Source: Planctomycetota bacterium (GTDB lineage Bacteria; Planctomycetota; Planctomycetia; Pirellulales; Pirellulaceae). Taken from it: 6,282 nt of DNA. The DNA lies in NCBI GenBank assembly GCA_026692885.1, contig JAPLNJ010000750.1, positions 1 through 6,282 on the forward strand. Reading direction: 5' to 3'. The notes under the pieces were generated by a model, which did no database searches, had not been told where the DNA came from, and saw only the letters and a list, made by a program, of their open reading frames with translations. This document shows, piece by piece, positions 1 through 6,282 of the stretch; position 1 is the stretch's first letter; each line of letters starts with the position of its first letter. The position numbers were made by a program, and so were the translations under genes.

Positions 1-378
1 CGGAGGCGACGTCCCAGAGGCGGACGGATTTGTCGTGCGAGCCGCTGGCCAGTTGTCGTCCATCGGGGCTGAAGGCGACGCTCCTGACAGACCCCTGGTG
101 TCCGTTGCAGACGCGGAGTTCCTTGGCGGAGGCGACGTCCCAGAGGCGGACGGAGTTGTCGTCCGAGCCACTGGCCAGTTGTCGTCCATCGGGGCTGAAG
201 GCGACGCTCCCGACATAGCCCTGGTGTCCGTTGCAGACGCGGAGTTCCTTGGCGGAGGCGACGTCCCAGAGGCGGACGGATTTATCGGACGAGCCGCTGG
301 CCAGTTGTCGTCCATCGGGGCTGAAGGCGACGCTCCCGACAGAGCCCTGGTGTCCGTTGCAGGCGCGGAGTTCCTTGG
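1..378 (-). repeat. Three near-identical 126-bp tandem repeats encoding WD40 blades
   Basis: Units 1–126, 127–252 and 253–378 have an exact 126-bp period (42 residues, one propeller blade). By direct comparison they differ at only 6 or 7 of 126 bases per pair. Each encodes the WD40 pattern GHQG-x-V-x-SVAFSPDG…LASGS…VRLWD. A fourth, diverged unit lies at about 379–505 (SPDGTLIASGHNDGSVRLWD). Most differences change the residue, and they cluster just after LASGS (S-D-K, D-D-N, H-D-K) and around GHQG (S or Y, then G or R). The array continues past the left edge, so blade number is unknown. Confidence 0.93.
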
Positions 379-3300
379 CGGAGGCGACGTCCCAGAGACG
401 GACGCTGCCGTCGTTGTGGCCGGAGGCGATCAGCGTACCGTCGGGGCTCACGGCGAGGGTATTGCCGGGAGACGCGGGACTGCTAAAATTGGGCGGGTGG
501 GCGAGGGTCATGGGTAGCGCGGCCCCGAGCAACCGCTCTTCTCCCACCGCCTGTGCGAACTCCGCACCCAGCTTCGCGCCGATCAGCTTGGCCCGCCTGA
601 ATACGGCGCCTACGACGCTGGCCCCGCGCAGATCGGCGCCCAGCAGACTGGTGCGGGCCAGGATGGCCGCGTCCAGCGTCGCCTCGCGCAGATCGGCCCG
701 GTCAAGTCGGGCCTCAGTCAGGTCCGCGCCTCGCAGGTTGGCCCGGCGCAGGTCACGGCCTGTGAAATCCTTGCCCCGTAAGTCTTGCCCGGCGAGATCG
801 ATCGCTGGCGCGGGAGGCGGCTCGGCCTCGGTCGCCGGCGCCGGGCGCAGCTCCTGGTGACGTTGCTGGATCAGCAGGGCGTTCTTCTTCAGCCAGCCTT
901 CGATACCGCCCGGCTGGCCCAGGATGTCCGTGGCCCACGCCAGCGCCCGGTCCGGCTTGGCCAGCCCCAGGACGAAATCCGCCATCAGCGGCGAGACCTC
1001 GTTCTGTTCCAGCGACTGCGGCGTCTGGCCGGCCGCAACAGCCGCCGCGGCGTCGCGGGCGATCAGCCATTCCATGACCGAACGGTGGACGAACGAGAAC
1101 CGGCCTTCGCGGTCCCGCACCAGCAGCGAGCCGGCTCCGATCTCGAAGGCCGCCTCGTGGGCCGTCATGTCCAAGGCCGGCAAGTCCTTGCGCGCGGCTT
1201 GCACCTGCTCGGTCAACTCGCCCACGTCTACGCTCCGCTGGCCAGTTTCCCACATCCGCAGCGCCAGACGCGTGACGGCGGCCCACAAGTGGTCCTTCTC
1301 CAGCGTTTTCAACCCGCCGTGGGCTTGGCGGCGGCGGACTTCGCCCTCCAGCCACTTGTCCAGGATGATCTGGTACAAGTCGGCGGCCGTGATCTGACCC
1401 GACGGGTCGCGGGCTTCGAGCAATCGCTGGTCGTCCAGTTCGGCGATGAAACTGAGCAGTCGCGGGTTGGCTGAAAGCCCTTGCAAGTCCTGGACGTCCC
1501 GGATCAGCGTCATGCGGTGGTTGGCCAGTTGTTGTACCTCGGCGTCGTCCGGCGGCAAGGGCGATTGCCCGGCTGGGGAGCGGTAGTAGTTGACCAAGAA
1601 GCTGCGCACCTGGTCGAGTTCAAAACTCCGTAGTTCCACCAGCCGCCGCGCGGACACGGTGTCGATCTGGGCGTACAACGCCTGCTTGACCTGCTGTTCG
1701 CTCAGAAAATGCTGCGTCCGGCTGGTGACGACCACCTTGGCCTGTCCCTGGGCCGCGTCGACCAGTGCGGCCAGATGCTCGGCGGCCCGGTCGTAGGTCA
1801 CGCGCAGGGCCAGTTCATCGAAGCCGTCGAACAGCAGGCAGATTCGGCCGTGGCGGAGCATGTAACGGAACCGGCCGATGTCGAATCGCTCCTCGCGCGT
1901 TGCGATCATGTGCATCGACACCAGCACGTCCACCGGATGCCCGCGTTCCAGCGACCGCATCTCGATCAGCACGGGCGTCAGGTGCGGCAGCCGTTTGGGC
2001 ATCTGTCGCGCCAACTCGTGCAGCAAGAACGTCTTGCCGGTGCCGAATTCGCCCAGGACCAGCACAAACCGGGCGTCCGGCTGTTCGAGCCACTGGAAGA
2101 CCTGTTCGGTAACGTTGTCTCCGGGCTGGCGCTGGTTGCCCACGTGGTGCCAGTACCGTTGCGGCACGTACAGCCGAGGCGGATAGATGGGATCTCGTTC
2201 CAGCCGGTCGTTTTGCTCGGCCTTGTACCGGCGAAAGTCGGTCAGCTCCAGGTACTCCTCGAACGACAGCAGTTGCACGCCGGCCTTCCTGGCGGCCGAG
2301 ACGACCAGGGCGTCTGCCAGCGGTCCGCCGTAGACGATATACGACTGCAGATTGGCATCGGCTGCGCGGAACGAGGCGTCGATACTCTTGAGGAATCGCT
2401 GCAGACCGTCCAGCGAGCAGTCGTTCTCCATTACCCCGATCGGGAAGTGCCGCGTGACCAGGCCACTGCGGCAGGTGACGCGGAGATACGGGATGCCCGA
2501 TTCGTCGTCCAGCTGCTCGACCACGCGCGCCTCCTCCGGCTCGCGCAGGCGGCACACGTCTGCCACGTGGGAGAAGAAATCGGTCCGTGAATGGGACCGG
2601 ATCCCGCCAGCATCGCGAGTGTCGTCGCGATCGGCGTCCTGACGCAATGGTTCTACGTCTGGATCGGTCTTCGCTTCCTTCGTTTTTGGGTCGGCGAGTT
2701 TGTCCCACGGCTCATCCTCAGGAAAGACGGCGTGGGCGTGTTGAAACGTCACACGGTCTTTGGTCTGCCAGTTATTGCCATCGTCTGAGCAGCGGGTGTC
2801 TCCGATCCATTTCTTGTTGGGCGGGTCGTAGCACCGCATCCAGCGCACGAATCGGTCCGGGAAGAGTTGGAGCAATTGGTACTGGTTGGGCGTCTCTTCG
2901 GGCCGAGCCGCCCGTCCCAGCCCTGCGCTGCCGGTGGAGATCGCAGGCAGGTGCTGGTTCAGCCAATTCAGCGCGCCGAAATGCGTGTGGCCGTGAAGGA
3001 CCAGGTTCAGCGAGGGAGCCAGGAGCCGTTTCAGATCGAGGATGTCTTTCAGGTTCTCGTCATCATTTTCCGGCCCGCGGACTGGGTTGTGATGCATGAC
3101 TCCGATCCGCAGCCAGCCGTCGGCGACAAACGGTTTCAGGCGGTCGGCGAACCAGTTCAGTTGCTTCTCGCCACACCGGCCGAAGTGTCCGCAGGCGCCG
3201 TCGTGAATCCACTTCTGGTACGCATCACGCGGCGGAACTGCGGCCGCCTTGATTGCCTTGTGCACATCCTCCTCGCCGTGGATTTCCGGCATCGTCGAAT

Positions 3301-3817
3301 TCAGCCCCGCGACGACCACGCGGAGATCATCCAGCTGATACCACGTCCACGGTTCGGCAGGCACAAAGGTGAGGTCCGGTTCGTCGTGGTAGAACTCCTG
3401 GAGCATCGCCTGAAAGAACTCCCATTTGCGCCAGAAGGGACGCTCGGGCTCTGTTTCGCGGGCTTCGCACTCGTTGAAATACGACTCACAGAGCTTCCGG
3501 CTGACATCGTGGTTGCCCGGCACGACGATCACTCGCCGCCGCGGCAGTTGCAGGTGTTCCGCCAGTGTGACGAGGAACTTCAGCGCGTCTTCGAATTCCG
3601 ACTTCCTGCCCCACTCGGCCAGATCACCGGAGACAACAAGCAGATTGGGTTTCAGCCCATTCTGGTCACGGAGTTGATCCAGGTCCTGGGTCAGACGCCC
3701 CAACAGCGTATCGAACGGCGAGTCCGGATCGCCCAACGCCAATCGGCCGAAGCGATGCTGGTGCCCGAACTGGATGTCGGAGATGTGCAAAATCGTAATC
3801 GGCGACGGGTCCGTCAT
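1..3817 (-). CDS. Metallophosphoesterase–NACHT–pentapeptide–WD40 STAND protein, 3' end outside window
   Basis: One open frame of at least 1272 codons with no stop before the left edge. Residues 7–330 are a calcineurin-like phosphoesterase: D14-I-Q16, G64-D65, G101-N-H-D104, H242-H243 and G276-H-T-H279 are the metal-binding motifs in the normal order. Residues 410–555 form a mixed domain I cannot assign. Residues 580–790 are a NACHT NTPase with Walker A GEFGTGKT (589–596), Walker B LLFDGFDE (661–668) and a TSR sensor (698–700); the helical tail includes FSFVHRSVMEWL (907–918), a common NACHT ending. A Pro/Ala linker (992–1005), sixteen pentapeptide repeats (1006–1085) and WD40 blades (from 1117) follow. 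No signal peptide or membrane segment is visible, so it is probably cytoplasmic. STAND proteins of this layout couple ligand sensing to NTP-driven oligomerisation and effector activation; a phosphoesterase effector acting on nucleic acid, nucleotide or phosphoprotein is inferred. ATG 3817 is the only possible start: the in-frame stop at 3878–3880 has no start codon after it. Confidence 0.93.
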   Translation of the reverse strand, partial: MTDPSPITILHISDIQFGHQHRFGRLALGDPDSPFDTLLGRLTQDLDQLRDQNGLKPNLLVVSGDLAEWGRKSEFEDALKFLVTLAEHLQLPRRRVIVVPGNHDVSRKLCESYFNECEARETEPERPFWRKWEFFQAMLQEFYHDEPDLTFVPAEPWTWYQLDDLRVVVAGLNSTMPEIHGEEDVHKAIKAAAVPPRDAYQKWIHDGACGHFGRCGEKQLNWFADRLKPFVADGWLRIGVMHHNPVRGPENDDENLKDILDLKRLLAPSLNLVLHGHTHFGALNWLNQHLPAISTGSAGLGRAARPEETPNQYQLLQLFPDRFVRWMRCYDPPNKKWIGDTRCSDDGNNWQTKDRVTFQHAHAVFPEDEPWDKLADPKTKEAKTDPDVEPLRQDADRDDTRDAGGIRSHSRTDFFSHVADVCRLREPEEARVVEQLDDESGIPYLRVTCRSGLVTRHFPIGVMENDCSLDGLQRFLKSIDASFRAADANLQSYIVYGGPLADALVVSAARKAGVQLLSFEEYLELTDFRRYKAEQNDRLERDPIYPPRLYVPQRYWHHVGNQRQPGDNVTEQVFQWLEQPDARFVLVLGEFGTGKTFLLHELARQMPKRLPHLTPVLIEMRSLERGHPVDVLVSMHMIATREERFDIGRFRYMLRHGRICLLFDGFDELALRVTYDRAAEHLAALVDAAQGQAKVVVTSRTQHFLSEQQVKQALYAQIDTVSARRLVELRSFELDQVRSFLVNYYRSPAGQSPLPPDDAEVQQLANHRMTLIRDVQDLQGLSANPRLLSFIAELDDQRLLEARDPSGQITAADLYQIILDKWLEGEVRRRQAHGGLKTLEKDHLWAAVTRLALRMWETGQRSVDVGELTEQVQAARKDLPALDMTAHEAAFEIGAGSLLVRDREGRFSFVHRSVMEWLIARDAAAAVAAGQTPQSLEQNEVSPLMADFVLGLAKPDRALAWATDILGQPGGIEGWLKKNALLIQQRHQELRPAPATEAEPPPAPAIDLAGQDLRGKDFTGRDLRRANLRGADLTEARLDRADLREATLDAAILARTSLLGADLRGASVVGAVFRRAKLIGAKLGAEFAQAVGEERLLGAALPMTLAHPPNFSSPASPGNTLAVSPDGTLIASGHNDGSVRLWDVASAKELRACNGHQGSVGSVAFSPDGRQLASGSSDKSVRLWDVASAKELRVCNGHQGYVGSVAFSPDGRQLASGSDDNSVRLWDVASAKELRVCNGHQGSVRSVAFSPDGRQLASGSHDKSVRLWDVAS
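563..802 (-). repeat. Sixteen in-register pentapeptide repeats within the NACHT protein
   Basis: Residues 1006–1085 follow the A(D/N)LXX pattern: a central Leu, Phe, Ile or Val falls every fifth residue from L1008 to L1083, often preceded by Asp or Asn and with Ala or Gly at the -2 position (for example RRANL, RGADL, DRADL, LGADL). This array should fold as a right-handed quadrilateral beta-helix. Sixteen repeats give about four coils, a rigid rod between the NACHT helical tail and the WD40 propeller. It could be a spacer or a second binding surface; the sequence does not say which. Confidence 0.88.
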
Positions 3818-4002: not shown

Positions 4003-4096
4003 GGGTCAGTCGTTCAAATTTCAGTTTTTGCGGCGGCGAGACTCTCCAGCATAGTTGCCTAGATGCCGCAAAAACTGAAAATTGAAGGACTGACCC
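4003..4096. repeat. 94-bp palindromic element, copy 1
   Basis: The left arm 4003–4034 begins GGGTCAGTC and ends TTTTTGCGGC. The right arm 4065–4096 is its reverse complement at 30 of 32 positions, with a 30-base loop between. The inner arm carries the motif TTTCAGTTTT, shared with the element at 4276–4371. No transposase is present, so this is at most a non-autonomous or REP/MITE-like palindrome. A structured RNA or a protein-binding site are alternatives. Confidence 0.85.
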
Positions 4097-4275: not shown

Positions 4276-4371
4276 GGGGTCAGACGTACAGATTTCAGTT
4301 TTCGCGGTCCTGTGCTCAAGCCTAGGGAAAGCCTTCTGCCCGCGAAAACTGAAATCTGTACGTCTGACCCC
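4276..4371. repeat. 96-bp palindromic element, copy 2, perfect 32-bp arms
   Basis: The left arm 4276–4307 (starts GGGGTCAGACG, ends TTTTCGCGG) and the right arm 4340–4371 are perfect reverse complements over 32 bases, with a 32-base loop. It matches copy 1 at about 27 of 31 arm positions. Where the copies differ, both arms usually changed together, so pairing is preserved. Perfect arms suggest recent spread or active maintenance. GCCTAG occurs in both loops (4057–4062 and 4320–4325). It is no ordinary terminator, because no T-tract follows the stem on either strand. Confidence 0.88.
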
Positions 4372-4491: not shown

Positions 4492-4668
4492 CCCCCCTTT
4501 ACTATTGAGTCCTAGGTTGCCAATGGAAAACGAGAGAACGTGGCATGGGAGGGCGACGCTCCCGCGGAGCCGTGGGCCGTTCCTGATGGCCCGCTCCGGC
4601 TCGGCGGGGTGCCCACGGGGCCCCTCGCCCTCCCATGCCATTGGCAACCTAGGACTGAATAAGGGGGG
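4492..4668. repeat. 177-bp nested palindromic element of a second type
   Basis: The outermost arms are CCCCCCTT (4492–4499) and AAGGGGGG (4661–4668). Next come AGTCCTAGGTTGCCAATGG (4508–4526) and its perfect complement at 4638–4656. Inside lie TGGCATGGGAGGGCGA (4541–4556) with its perfect complement 4625–4640, and CCGTGGGC (4570–4577) with GCCCACGG (4611–4618). Further small stems are GGGAG/CTCCC (4547–4563) and GGGCC/GGCCC (4575–4592). The second and third right arms share three bases (4638–4640), so those helices compete slightly at their junction. The sequence is unrelated to the GGGTCAG elements. It encodes no protein I can support; a palindromic mobile element or a large structured RNA are the main options. 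Confidence 0.82.
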
Positions 4669-4798: not shown

Positions 4799-6282
4799 CT
4801 AACCGGCTTTGGCGCCGACGGGGGATTCGGCCATAACACCGATGCACAGCTCGTTGGAAACGTGCGTTTTGGACGGCTTGGTGGGCGCGTCCAGCTCTTT
4901 CTTGGACGCGCGGGCATGCGCTTCGACGACCGCGGTAATCGCCTCGACTTCGGCTGCGTGAGACGGCCCGGCTAAAGCCTCCACGTAACGGCGCACACAT
5001 TCGACCGTCTCGTCGATGGCGTCGGCTTGGATCAGCATCAGCTCGCCCGGTTGAACTGTGTTCAAGGCGTGCTCCACCGACTTGACCGCGCCCTGAATCG
5101 CTTCGACCTGCCGAGTGCGGGTGCCTTGGGCCACACCCTGGCGGAACAGGTTGATGATCTCGCCCTCCACACGGCCGCGAACGTAGTGGTCTTCGTACAG
5201 CACCACCCGATCAAAGGCGTCGCCCAGCAATTGCCCCATCAGCAACATGTCGCAATCGCGGCGGTCGCCTGCCGTCGAATAGACCGCCGTCCGGCGCTGC
5301 TGGGGAAACGTGTTGATGGCTTCGATCATGGCCCGCAGAGCATGGGCATTGTGGCCATAATCGATAATCACCATGGCGCCTTTGATCTCCAGGATATTGA
5401 ACCGGCCCGGCGTCTTGCTCATGTCCGCCGCAAAGCTCTCGGCGCGCGCCACGATCGTCTCCTTGGACAGACCCAGCGCCCAGGCAGCGCCCAGGGCCGC
5501 CAAGGTGTTTTCCACTTCGAACGAGATGCGGCCGTGGTGGGTCAGCGGGATGTGATCCAGGGTCGTCAGCGGTGTCTCGTGGTCGCCCTCGGCCAGGATG
5601 ATCGTCTGCTCGCGCACAAACACGGCCCGGCCGCCTACGCTACGGTGCTGGACAATCACCGGATGCTGGCCGTCGATGGCGAAGAACAGGACTTTGCCGC
5701 GCGAGTACTGGGCCATGTTCGCGACGAGCGGATCCGCGGCGTTCAGCACGGCGGTCCCCGTGTCGCGAGCCACCACGTCGACAATCGTCCGCTTGACCTT
5801 GGCCAGGTCTTCCGGCGTGTGGATATCGTGCAGGCCGAGATGGTCGCCGTCACCGATATTCGTCACGACCGCCACGTCGCATTGGTCAAAGCCCAAGCCG
5901 GCGCGGAGGATGCCGCCTCGAGCCGTCTCAAACACGGCCACATCGATATTGGGGTTCATCAGCACCCGGCGGGCGCTGCTCGGACCGGCGCAGTCGTCGT
6001 GATCGACGCGGCGGTCCTCAAAATAGATCCCGTCCGTGCAGGTCATCCCCACCCGGCGGCCGGTTCCCTTCAGGAGATGGGCGATGAACCGGGTCGTGGT
6101 CGTCTTGCCATTCACGCCGGTCACCGCGACGATCGGGATGCGGCCGTTGTTGCCCGGCTCGAACATCATGTCGACGATCGCTTCCCCCACCGGACGCGGT
6201 ACGCCGACCGACGGCGCCAAATGCATCCGCAGGCCGGGGGCGGCGTTGACCTCGACCACGATCCCGCCCTGCTCCTCCAACG
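4799..6282 (-). CDS. cphA: Cyanophycin synthetase, C-terminal half (5' end outside window)
   Basis: CphA makes cyanophycin, a non-ribosomal Asp/Arg storage polymer, by alternating ATP-dependent additions: the ATP-grasp domain adds Asp to the backbone and the Mur-ligase-like domain adds Arg to the side chain. Counting from the leucine codon at 6280, residues 7–18 (IVVEVNAAPGLR) are the end of the ATP-grasp domain. The Mur-ligase domain follows: P-loop GVNGKT (55–60), FETARGG (117–123), NIGDGDHLG (141–149), PGRFN (291–295), DYGHNAHAL (307–315) and GDRRD (338–342). The intact P-loop fits bifunctional CphA1 rather than CphA2, where this site is degenerate. About 493 residues are visible, against roughly 870–900 for the whole protein. 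The TTG at 6280 is an internal codon, not a start. A tail of about 60 residues after RRYVEAL (430–436), rich in Ala and Lys, looks like a C-terminal extension. The stop is TAG at 4801–4799. Confidence 0.95.
   Translation of the reverse strand, partial: LEEQGGIVVEVNAAPGLRMHLAPSVGVPRPVGEAIVDMMFEPGNNGRIPIVAVTGVNGKTTTTRFIAHLLKGTGRRVGMTCTDGIYFEDRRVDHDDCAGPSSARRVLMNPNIDVAVFETARGGILRAGLGFDQCDVAVVTNIGDGDHLGLHDIHTPEDLAKVKRTIVDVVARDTGTAVLNAADPLVANMAQYSRGKVLFFAIDGQHPVIVQHRSVGGRAVFVREQTIILAEGDHETPLTTLDHIPLTHHGRISFEVENTLAALGAAWALGLSKETIVARAESFAADMSKTPGRFNILEIKGAMVIIDYGHNAHALRAMIEAINTFPQQRRTAVYSTAGDRRDCDMLLMGQLLGDAFDRVVLYEDHYVRGRVEGEIINLFRQGVAQGTRTRQVEAIQGAVKSVEHALNTVQPGELMLIQADAIDETVECVRRYVEALAGPSHAAEVEAITAVVEAHARASKKELDAPTKPSKTHVSNELCIGVMAESPVGAKAG

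Follow-up and report, generated by a model that had tools for sequence, protein, structure and literature searches.

A likely NLR-like immune receptor of a planctomycete with a DxQ metallophosphoesterase as its putative exchangeable effector and a diversifying WD40 sensor

A 6,282-nt stretch of DNA from a Planctomycetota bacterium (Pirellulaceae; GCA_026692885.1, contig JAPLNJ010000750.1), referred to here as the window, carries a gene for a protein in which a metallophosphoesterase (MPE), an NA-iREase3 domain, a NACHT ATPase, pentapeptide repeats and WD40 repeats follow one another. Comparison with relatives and with tested systems makes it likely that this protein is a bacterial NLR-like (STAND) immune receptor whose MPE, once activated, would destroy a nucleotide, and the receptor would probably be used against phages or other non-self. 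An original prediction made from the DNA letters had proposed an effector, a STAND ATPase and a sensor in one chain. That reading is well supported because N-termini are exchanged among relatives, the MPE occurs on other STANDs, catalytic and Walker residues are mostly conserved and DS-8, a metallophosphatase-NACHT protein, has been tested; its suggestion of a nuclease is disfavoured. Loci, proteins and genomes that need telling apart carry L, P and G numbers.

The frame (2..3817, minus strand) begins with ATG and continues for 1272 residues without a stop, being still open at the edge of the window. Because the contig ends inside the 126-nt repeat array of the WD40 part, the protein is incomplete; complete relatives are about 1700 residues long, so that about 430 residues more, together with a C-terminal tail of consensus GRYK...LCRFE.GELD, would be expected past the contig end. 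Metallophosphoesterase, NACHT, pentapeptide and WD40 parts in a single frame, as predicted, were confirmed by PF00805 (2.4e-14) and PF00400 (6.2e-48) among the 25 of 68 families viewed in the Pfam scan and by PF00149 and PF05729 in the precomputed Pfam list. H103, K595 and D667 stand at the positions named earlier, counting by eye again gave 16 pentapeptide repeats, and the NACHT Walker A and Walker B motifs (GEFGTGKT and LLFDGFDEL) are intact. The earlier list of four domains held but had overlooked NA-iREase3 (PF22739, residues 412-528), which joins MPE and NACHT. Similarly, all five motifs of the phosphoesterase set, described as intact, are present, but the set is not canonical, motif I being DxQ and not DxH.

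Features of the window and of chassis members with an altered MPE (positions refer to the window unless a locus is given)
Feature	Position	Strand	Remarks
Whole gene, MPE - NA-iREase3 - NACHT - pentapeptide - WD40, 1272 residues	2..3817	-	3' end past contig end
MPE, putative effector, residues 1-350	2768..3817	-	
MPE motif I, D14-I-Q16	3770..3778	-	DxQ replacing DxH; Q in 118/119 rows with a letter there
MPE motif II, GDLAE, residues 64-68	3614..3628	-	G64, D65 120/120; E68 119/120
MPE motif III, GNHD, residues 101-104	3506..3517	-	N102 120/120; H103 119/120
MPE motif IV, HHN, residues 242-244	3086..3094	-	120/120 at each residue
MPE motif V, HGHTH, residues 275-279	2981..2995	-	H277 120/120; H279 119/120
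NA-iREase3 (PF22739), residues 412-528	2234..2584	-	87.5 bits; Pfam cut-off 27
NACHT ATPase core, about residues 560-760	1538..2140	-	
Walker A, GEFGTGKT, residues 589-596 (K595)	2030..2053	-	
Walker B, LLFDGFDEL, residues 661-669 (D664, D667, E668)	1811..1837	-	
Helical part of STAND module behind ATPase core, residues 761-1000	818..1537	-	model; alignment with NLRC4, NOD2, NLRP3
16 pentapeptide repeats (eye count), residues 1010-1089	551..790	-	PF00805, 2.4e-14
WD40 sensor start, residues 1105-1272	2..505	-	PF00400, 6.2e-48
Near-identical WD40 units, residue 1162 onward	2..334	-	126-nt period, 94% matches
Two related hairpins	4003-4096 and 4276-4371		32-nt arms, 94-100% complementary, about 30 nt between arms
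Nested inverted repeat, same intergenic stretch	4503-4661		24-nt and 23-nt arms
Cyanophycin synthetase, C-terminal half	4799-6280	-	NF010623, 583 bits, profile positions 433-865
Altered-MPE member	L007:1-4518	-	
Altered-MPE member	L112:1-3902	-	
Altered-MPE member	L115:1-4993	-	
Altered-MPE member	L120:8329-13335	+	

The part of the protein preceding the NA-iREase3 adaptor is occupied by different domains in different relatives. The iREase-NACHT part (residues 405-760) matched 1383 proteins, and in the best 120 of these the region preceding the adaptor was assigned with seeds of known domains. MPE was found in 51, TIR in 12, TIR together with MPE in 10, SIR2 in six, PNP in four and trypsin together with MPE in three; three were truncated and 31 were unlabelled, including, by eye, 22 with a TIR-like start and two resembling cut MPE ends. 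The SIR2 seeds were three of the six SIR2 proteins themselves, and the assignment agrees with the source names and with the presence of PF13289 in their precomputed domain lists. Pfam showed that PNP_UDP_1 substitutes for the MPE in four Sorangium loci (barely over cut-off in L108), that EAD1 is present in L118 (below cut-off in L116 and L117) and that L119 has an Mrr-like match below cut-off. TIR stands beside MPE in L004, L009, L113 and L115 (one Frankia genome) and trypsin beside MPE in L002, L007 and L112; no Pfam domain was found in the 190 residues preceding the MPE of L001.

The DxQ MPE was also detected over cut-off with other STANDs, namely an adaptor-less NACHT (P0113), an nSTAND1 (P0082) and an nSTAND5 (L008), in the last case encoded by its own gene, which lies 1 nt upstream of the nSTAND5 gene; its occurrence with AAA_16-like (L005) and TPR-like (P0107) proteins was below cut-off and has weaker support. 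Both sides of the MPE joint are swapped, which therefore fits the expectation for an effector module. From these sequences, the chassis of adaptor, NACHT, pentapeptide and WD40 parts appears to be constant and the N-terminal effectors exchangeable, so that effector and sensor could be tested separately. Six proteins (P0128, P0141, P0134, P0165, P0193 and P0199) carry before NA-iREase3-NACHT slot domains that the seeds did not recognise.

With residues 1-560 as the query, 7994 candidates were scored and 489 of them matched at E ≤ 1e-3; the best 120 of the 489, including the window protein, were examined as the highest-ranking matches and not as a random sample. Homologues with the same domain set were found as predicted: 88 of these best 120 hold MPE, iREase, NACHT, pentapeptide and WD40 parts, 33 of the 88 being extended at the N-terminus by over 150 residues, while the other 32, many of them short, lack at least one part. 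Because 489 proteins match and 88 of the best 120 hold all parts, the architecture is more than chance; it was not named in the accessible text of the open-licence literature searched. Members come from Pirellulaceae, Longimicrobiaceae, Gemmatimonadetes, Thermoanaerobaculia, Myxococcota, Actinomycetota, Gammaproteobacteria and others. In four groups of genomes NA-iREase3 was over cut-off in 2/246, 2/235, 1/396 and 0/369, the first three counts including each group's defining genome. The family is widespread but patchy, and NA-iREase3 is rare across whole genomes; five matches occur in G004 (Frankia; two of them in frames only 317 and 358 residues long) and four each in G009 (Sorangium) and G001. 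A locus of Sorangium cellulosum (L010:9893-13418), with an MPE start in one frame and NACHT-like, HEAT-like and Couple_hipA parts in a different one, resembles a copy disrupted by breakage or rearrangement.

The MPE is of the binuclear type and conforms to the calcineurin-like pattern DX[H/X]..GDXX[D/X]..GNH[D/E]..[G/X]H..GHX[H/X], with Q in motif I and E in motif II. Eight chosen residues were all retained in 115 of the 120 relatives, the five exceptions being two N-terminal gaps and three single changes. Among 73 distant MPE loci (L011-L083), motif I was DxH in 55 and DxQ in two (L026 and L057, both also GD[VI]AE) and was uncovered in 16; one of the two scan patterns for distant MPEs required DxQF, so any bias favours Q. 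Because the distant loci are overwhelmingly DxH, DxQ together with GDxAE is, on the sequences compared, the hallmark of this MPE clade.

The likely substrate was considered by analogy. According to the accessible parts of the reports, motif I of the ADPRibase-Mn family nearly always reads D[V/I]Q, a docking model has this Gln binding metal, and a Gln-to-His exchange there makes the enzyme 11- to 27-fold less efficient on the four substrates tested (PMC4334965); the window protein (DIQ) shares this motif and the MPE fold with ADPRibase-Mn (2nxf; PMC4334965, PMC3407115). This likeness suggests a pyrophosphate-type substrate. At E ≤ 0.01 the A1 profile gave 11 matches, none of them 2nxf, and the nearest folds of the MPE, apart from one integrative model of unknown activity, were phosphodiesterases such as Rv0805 and GpdQ. 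The slot-mates TIR, SIR2 and PNP act on NAD or nucleosides, so a nucleotide would be the natural guess for the MPE; both the folds and the slot-mates speak against the nuclease activity proposed in the original prediction. In Thiodiazotropha (L026:4858-11041), a 1562-residue protein without a Pfam match overlaps a gene for a 504-residue DxQ-type phosphoesterase, which scores 68.9 bits to DS-8, under the cut-off; the pair is possibly a further system.

The NACHT module retains a sensor-1-like motif (VVTSR) alongside Walker A and Walker B, and six Walker residues are kept in 112 of the 120 relatives, the other eight being without that part or on a different chassis. The NACHT fold and the helical part trailing it were recovered in a model aligned with NLRC4, NOD2 and NLRP3. 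In residues 405-530 the near-invariant columns contain a single acidic residue (D527) and no Lys, the list of structure matches starting only at about residue 520, and on this pattern the NA-iREase3 part would be an inactive restriction-endonuclease-like adaptor.

The WD units in the window have a 126-nt period with 94% matches over 3.2 copies, and the two complete units differ in amino acids only at unit positions 16, 18, 40 and 42. With a profile built from four units, 39 of the 59 full-length relatives were found to have exactly 14 WD repeats, a number consistent with two propellers of seven blades each, the arrangement modelled for HET-E. Among the best 120 matches to residues 1-560, adjacent WD pairs at least 80% identical were present in 34 of the 82 proteins having two or more WD motifs (90 pairs), and 267 of the 461 mismatches in those pairs (58%) fell at positions 16, 18, 25, 38, 39, 40 and 42. 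In the fungal HNWD receptors HET-D, HET-E and HET-R, the accessible text of the report lists repeat positions 10, 11, 12, 14, 30, 32 and 39 as those with high dN/dS, the ratio of nonsynonymous to synonymous change (PMC12222747). A shift of 28 maps the bacterial hypervariable positions onto all seven; the next best shift accounted for 157 mismatches, and 267 was reached by none of 20000 permutations, every one of them scored at its own most favourable shift. The fungal register was set by this best-fit shift without aligning fungal sequence, and it agrees with the paper, in which the repeat starts at strand d.

The share of mismatches at the seven positions was 75% in pairs at least 90% identical, 53% at 80-90% identity and 23% below 40%, and 91 further proteins from the search with the iREase-NACHT part gave 83%, 44% and 22% in the same classes (173 of 338 mismatches at the seven positions). 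At the DNA level, eight pairs (one from the window, three from L003 and four from L108) had 16 amino-acid-changing versus three silent codon differences at the seven positions and 22 versus 26 elsewhere, a contrast (Fisher p 0.006) that is indicative only, as neighbouring pairs share units and are not independent. Hotspot-site diversity in highly repetitive WD40 proteins was already reported, in the part of the source available (PMC5587647); for a bacterial NLR family, no report of variable positions coinciding with the fungal ones was found in the open-licence literature searched. Whether bacterial NLR sensors are diversified via repeat recombination, as fungal ones are, thereby becomes a testable question. 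Both HNWD and window proteins combine NACHT with 42-residue (126-bp) WD40 repeats, more than 80% identical in the fungi, where the sensor was modelled as two seven-blade propellers (PMC12222747). However, HNWD proteins are fungal and have a HET effector domain in the place of the MPE, and the accessible text describes no MPE, NA-iREase3 or pentapeptide part for them.

The nearest tested system is DS-8 (NF053861; DefensePredictor, Science 2026), which the accessible text describes as a single phage-protective metallophosphatase-NACHT protein of unknown substrate whose protection is abolished by mutation of either the metallophosphatase or NACHT (PMC13092281). Both DS-8 and the window protein have MPE and NACHT in one polypeptide, and relatives of the DS-8 STAND body (L146, L147) have a TIR-like start replacing the MPE. 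However, the window protein scored 45.4 bits against the NF053861 cut-off of 790, this model covers 994 positions, and NA-iREase3, pentapeptide and WD40 parts are not described for DS-8 in the text available. One NF053861 member was over cut-off in 369 genomes (L145, 1073 bits), and motif I in this one member read is DxH, in contrast to DxQ in the window family. By analogy, the window protein would work like DS-8 but is not DS-8.

The top NCBIfam match of the window protein was DS-9A (NF053862), at 83.7 bits under a cut-off of 420, and the MPE of L008 scored 106 bits to that model; no DS-9A member over 420 was found. As far as the text available goes, the metallophosphatase is needed for DS-9A protection as well, but DS-9A is a two-gene system with a HAD phosphatase and no NACHT described (PMC13092281). 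The antiphage NACHT protein HyoA was matched weakly (residues 572-720, 22.6 bits, cut-off 1200), and none of the eight PADLOC-DB 2.0.0 families matched at E ≤ 1 has an Avs name. A calcineurin-like effector, called much less familiar in the original prediction, is less novel than supposed: in the accessible portions of the literature, calcineurin-like phosphoesterases had been predicted as nucleotidyl phosphodiesterase effectors of conflict systems (PMC7159879, PMC8195603), with adaptors and sensors that differ from those of the window protein, one was validated in 2026 (PMC13092281), and a target of a diversity-generating retroelement with phosphodiesterase, NACHT and CLec domains was noted (PMC10907252). 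The kind has thus been known since DS-8; the window protein is set apart by its domain architecture, by belonging to the DxQ clade and by repeat diversification of a fungal type.

In the proposed mechanism, the top faces of the WD40 propellers would bind a phage or other non-self protein, NACHT would swap its nucleotide and oligomerise, and the adaptor would pack the effectors together. The clustered phosphoesterase may then turn active and hydrolyse a nucleotide-type phosphodiester or pyrophosphate, which would halt growth or kill the cell ahead of invader spread, and recombination among near-identical units could let sensor specificity change fast. The 14 members read from genomes lower the estimate of active-site conservation but leave the likelihood of the receptor reading unchanged: their MPEs are less conserved than those of the 120 listed relatives, and the MPE is intact in 10 at the nine positions checked but altered at two or more of these in L007 (first gene), L112, L115 and L120. 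Trypsin precedes the altered MPE in L007 and L112 and TIR in L115; in these small numbers, three of the four decayed MPEs stand next to a second effector.

Such degenerate MPEs beside another N-terminal domain (L007 first gene, L112, L115) indicate that the MPE is not always needed, and together with the 10 TIR and three trypsin fusions in the best 120 chassis matches they would suit a safety domain that degrades a messenger, for example a TIR product, and keeps the receptor quiet. This explanation is improbable, as the MPE is the sole labelled domain before the adaptor in 51 of those 120, leaving no other known effector to restrain, and active-site mutation ends DS-8 protection in the accessible account (PMC13092281). 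A somewhat better, though still unlikely, alternative is kin or self/non-self recognition in place of phage defence, in which the WD40 part would read variable proteins of neighbours or mobile elements, like HET-D and HET-E, and the MPE would kill or arrest. The coincidence of the seven hypervariable WD40 positions with those of fungal HNWD proteins at one shift, repeated on the 91 further proteins, the listing of groups with multicellular growth (Sorangium, Frankia, other Actinomycetota) and the multiple NA-iREase3 matches in G004, G009 and G001 are all consistent with it, but protection against phages is what the available text reports for bacterial NACHT and Avs proteins (PMC10907252, PMC13092281). 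Least probable, by a little, is a non-immune STAND regulator whose WD40 part reads a host signal and whose MPE alters cAMP or another second messenger. Cyclic-nucleotide phosphodiesterases, Rv0805 for one, are among the near folds, one source labels many relatives CpdA-like, and STAND regulators outside immunity exist, such as MalT (PMC10427625, in the part accessible); however, effector swaps (TIR, SIR2, PNP, EAD1), patchy distribution and diversifying repeats would be unusual for a housekeeping regulator.

A bolder version of the immune receptor, which we regard as speculative, combines a fungal-style sensor reshuffled between near-identical units, giving strain-specific specificities, with a DxQ MPE acting as a pyrophosphatase that breaks NAD+ or ADP-ribose. 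If this were true, the MPE in TIR-MPE fusions would carry the breakdown begun by TIR to its end, from NAD+ through ADP-ribose to AMP, and make NAD loss irreversible. For metallophosphatase effectors, whose target is unknown even in the case of DS-8, the DxQ active site gives a definite idea of what the substrate may be. The receptor reading would also bring to light a widespread, patchy NLR-like family, bacterial counterparts to the NLR receptors of animals and fungi, with a phosphoesterase effector, an ATP-driven NACHT switch and a repeat sensor.

Upstream of the receptor gene, on the same strand, lies a cyanophycin synthetase fragment, whose score is under the cut-off because the gene is cut, and about 1 kb with hairpins separates the two. 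The hairpin pair resembles a mobile palindromic repeat; among the 149 loci fetched, neither its exact core pattern nor that of the nested inverted repeat was present. Defence neighbours were sought in naive open reading frames (ORFs) of 150-1000 residues from 17 loci (107 ORFs; one locus, L121, with a 33% identical MPE, was unchecked for the chassis) with PADLOC-DB at E ≤ 1e-10, and 104 ORFs from 10 regions in six of the same genomes served as controls. The neighbours matched 99 models, and the 25 viewed had one ORF each, too few and too unspecific; among them are PD-T4-6, mad6 and C3a189, which probably all represent a single protein kinase, as well as PtuB1, HEC-01A and MTase_II. One control ORF was matched (PDC-M32A, four models). 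A scan of 10 of the 107 neighbour ORFs gave one weak match (Aga_SIR2 type, L119), Pfam identified housekeeping genes as well (ALAD, thiolase, CobU), and no shared operon partner was noticed around the 17 loci, without a systematic test.

DxH-type MPEs were observed in other settings. On a Nostoc plasmid (L133:1397-5728), an annotated metallophosphoesterase has a P-loop (342) followed by a DxH-type MPE (from about 875 on), and the next gene is annotated as NACHT. On plasmids of Aeromonas and Pantoea (L134:4004-6360 and L135:4001-6359), DxH-type metallophosphoesterase genes immediately precede GASH (GTPase-associated) genes.

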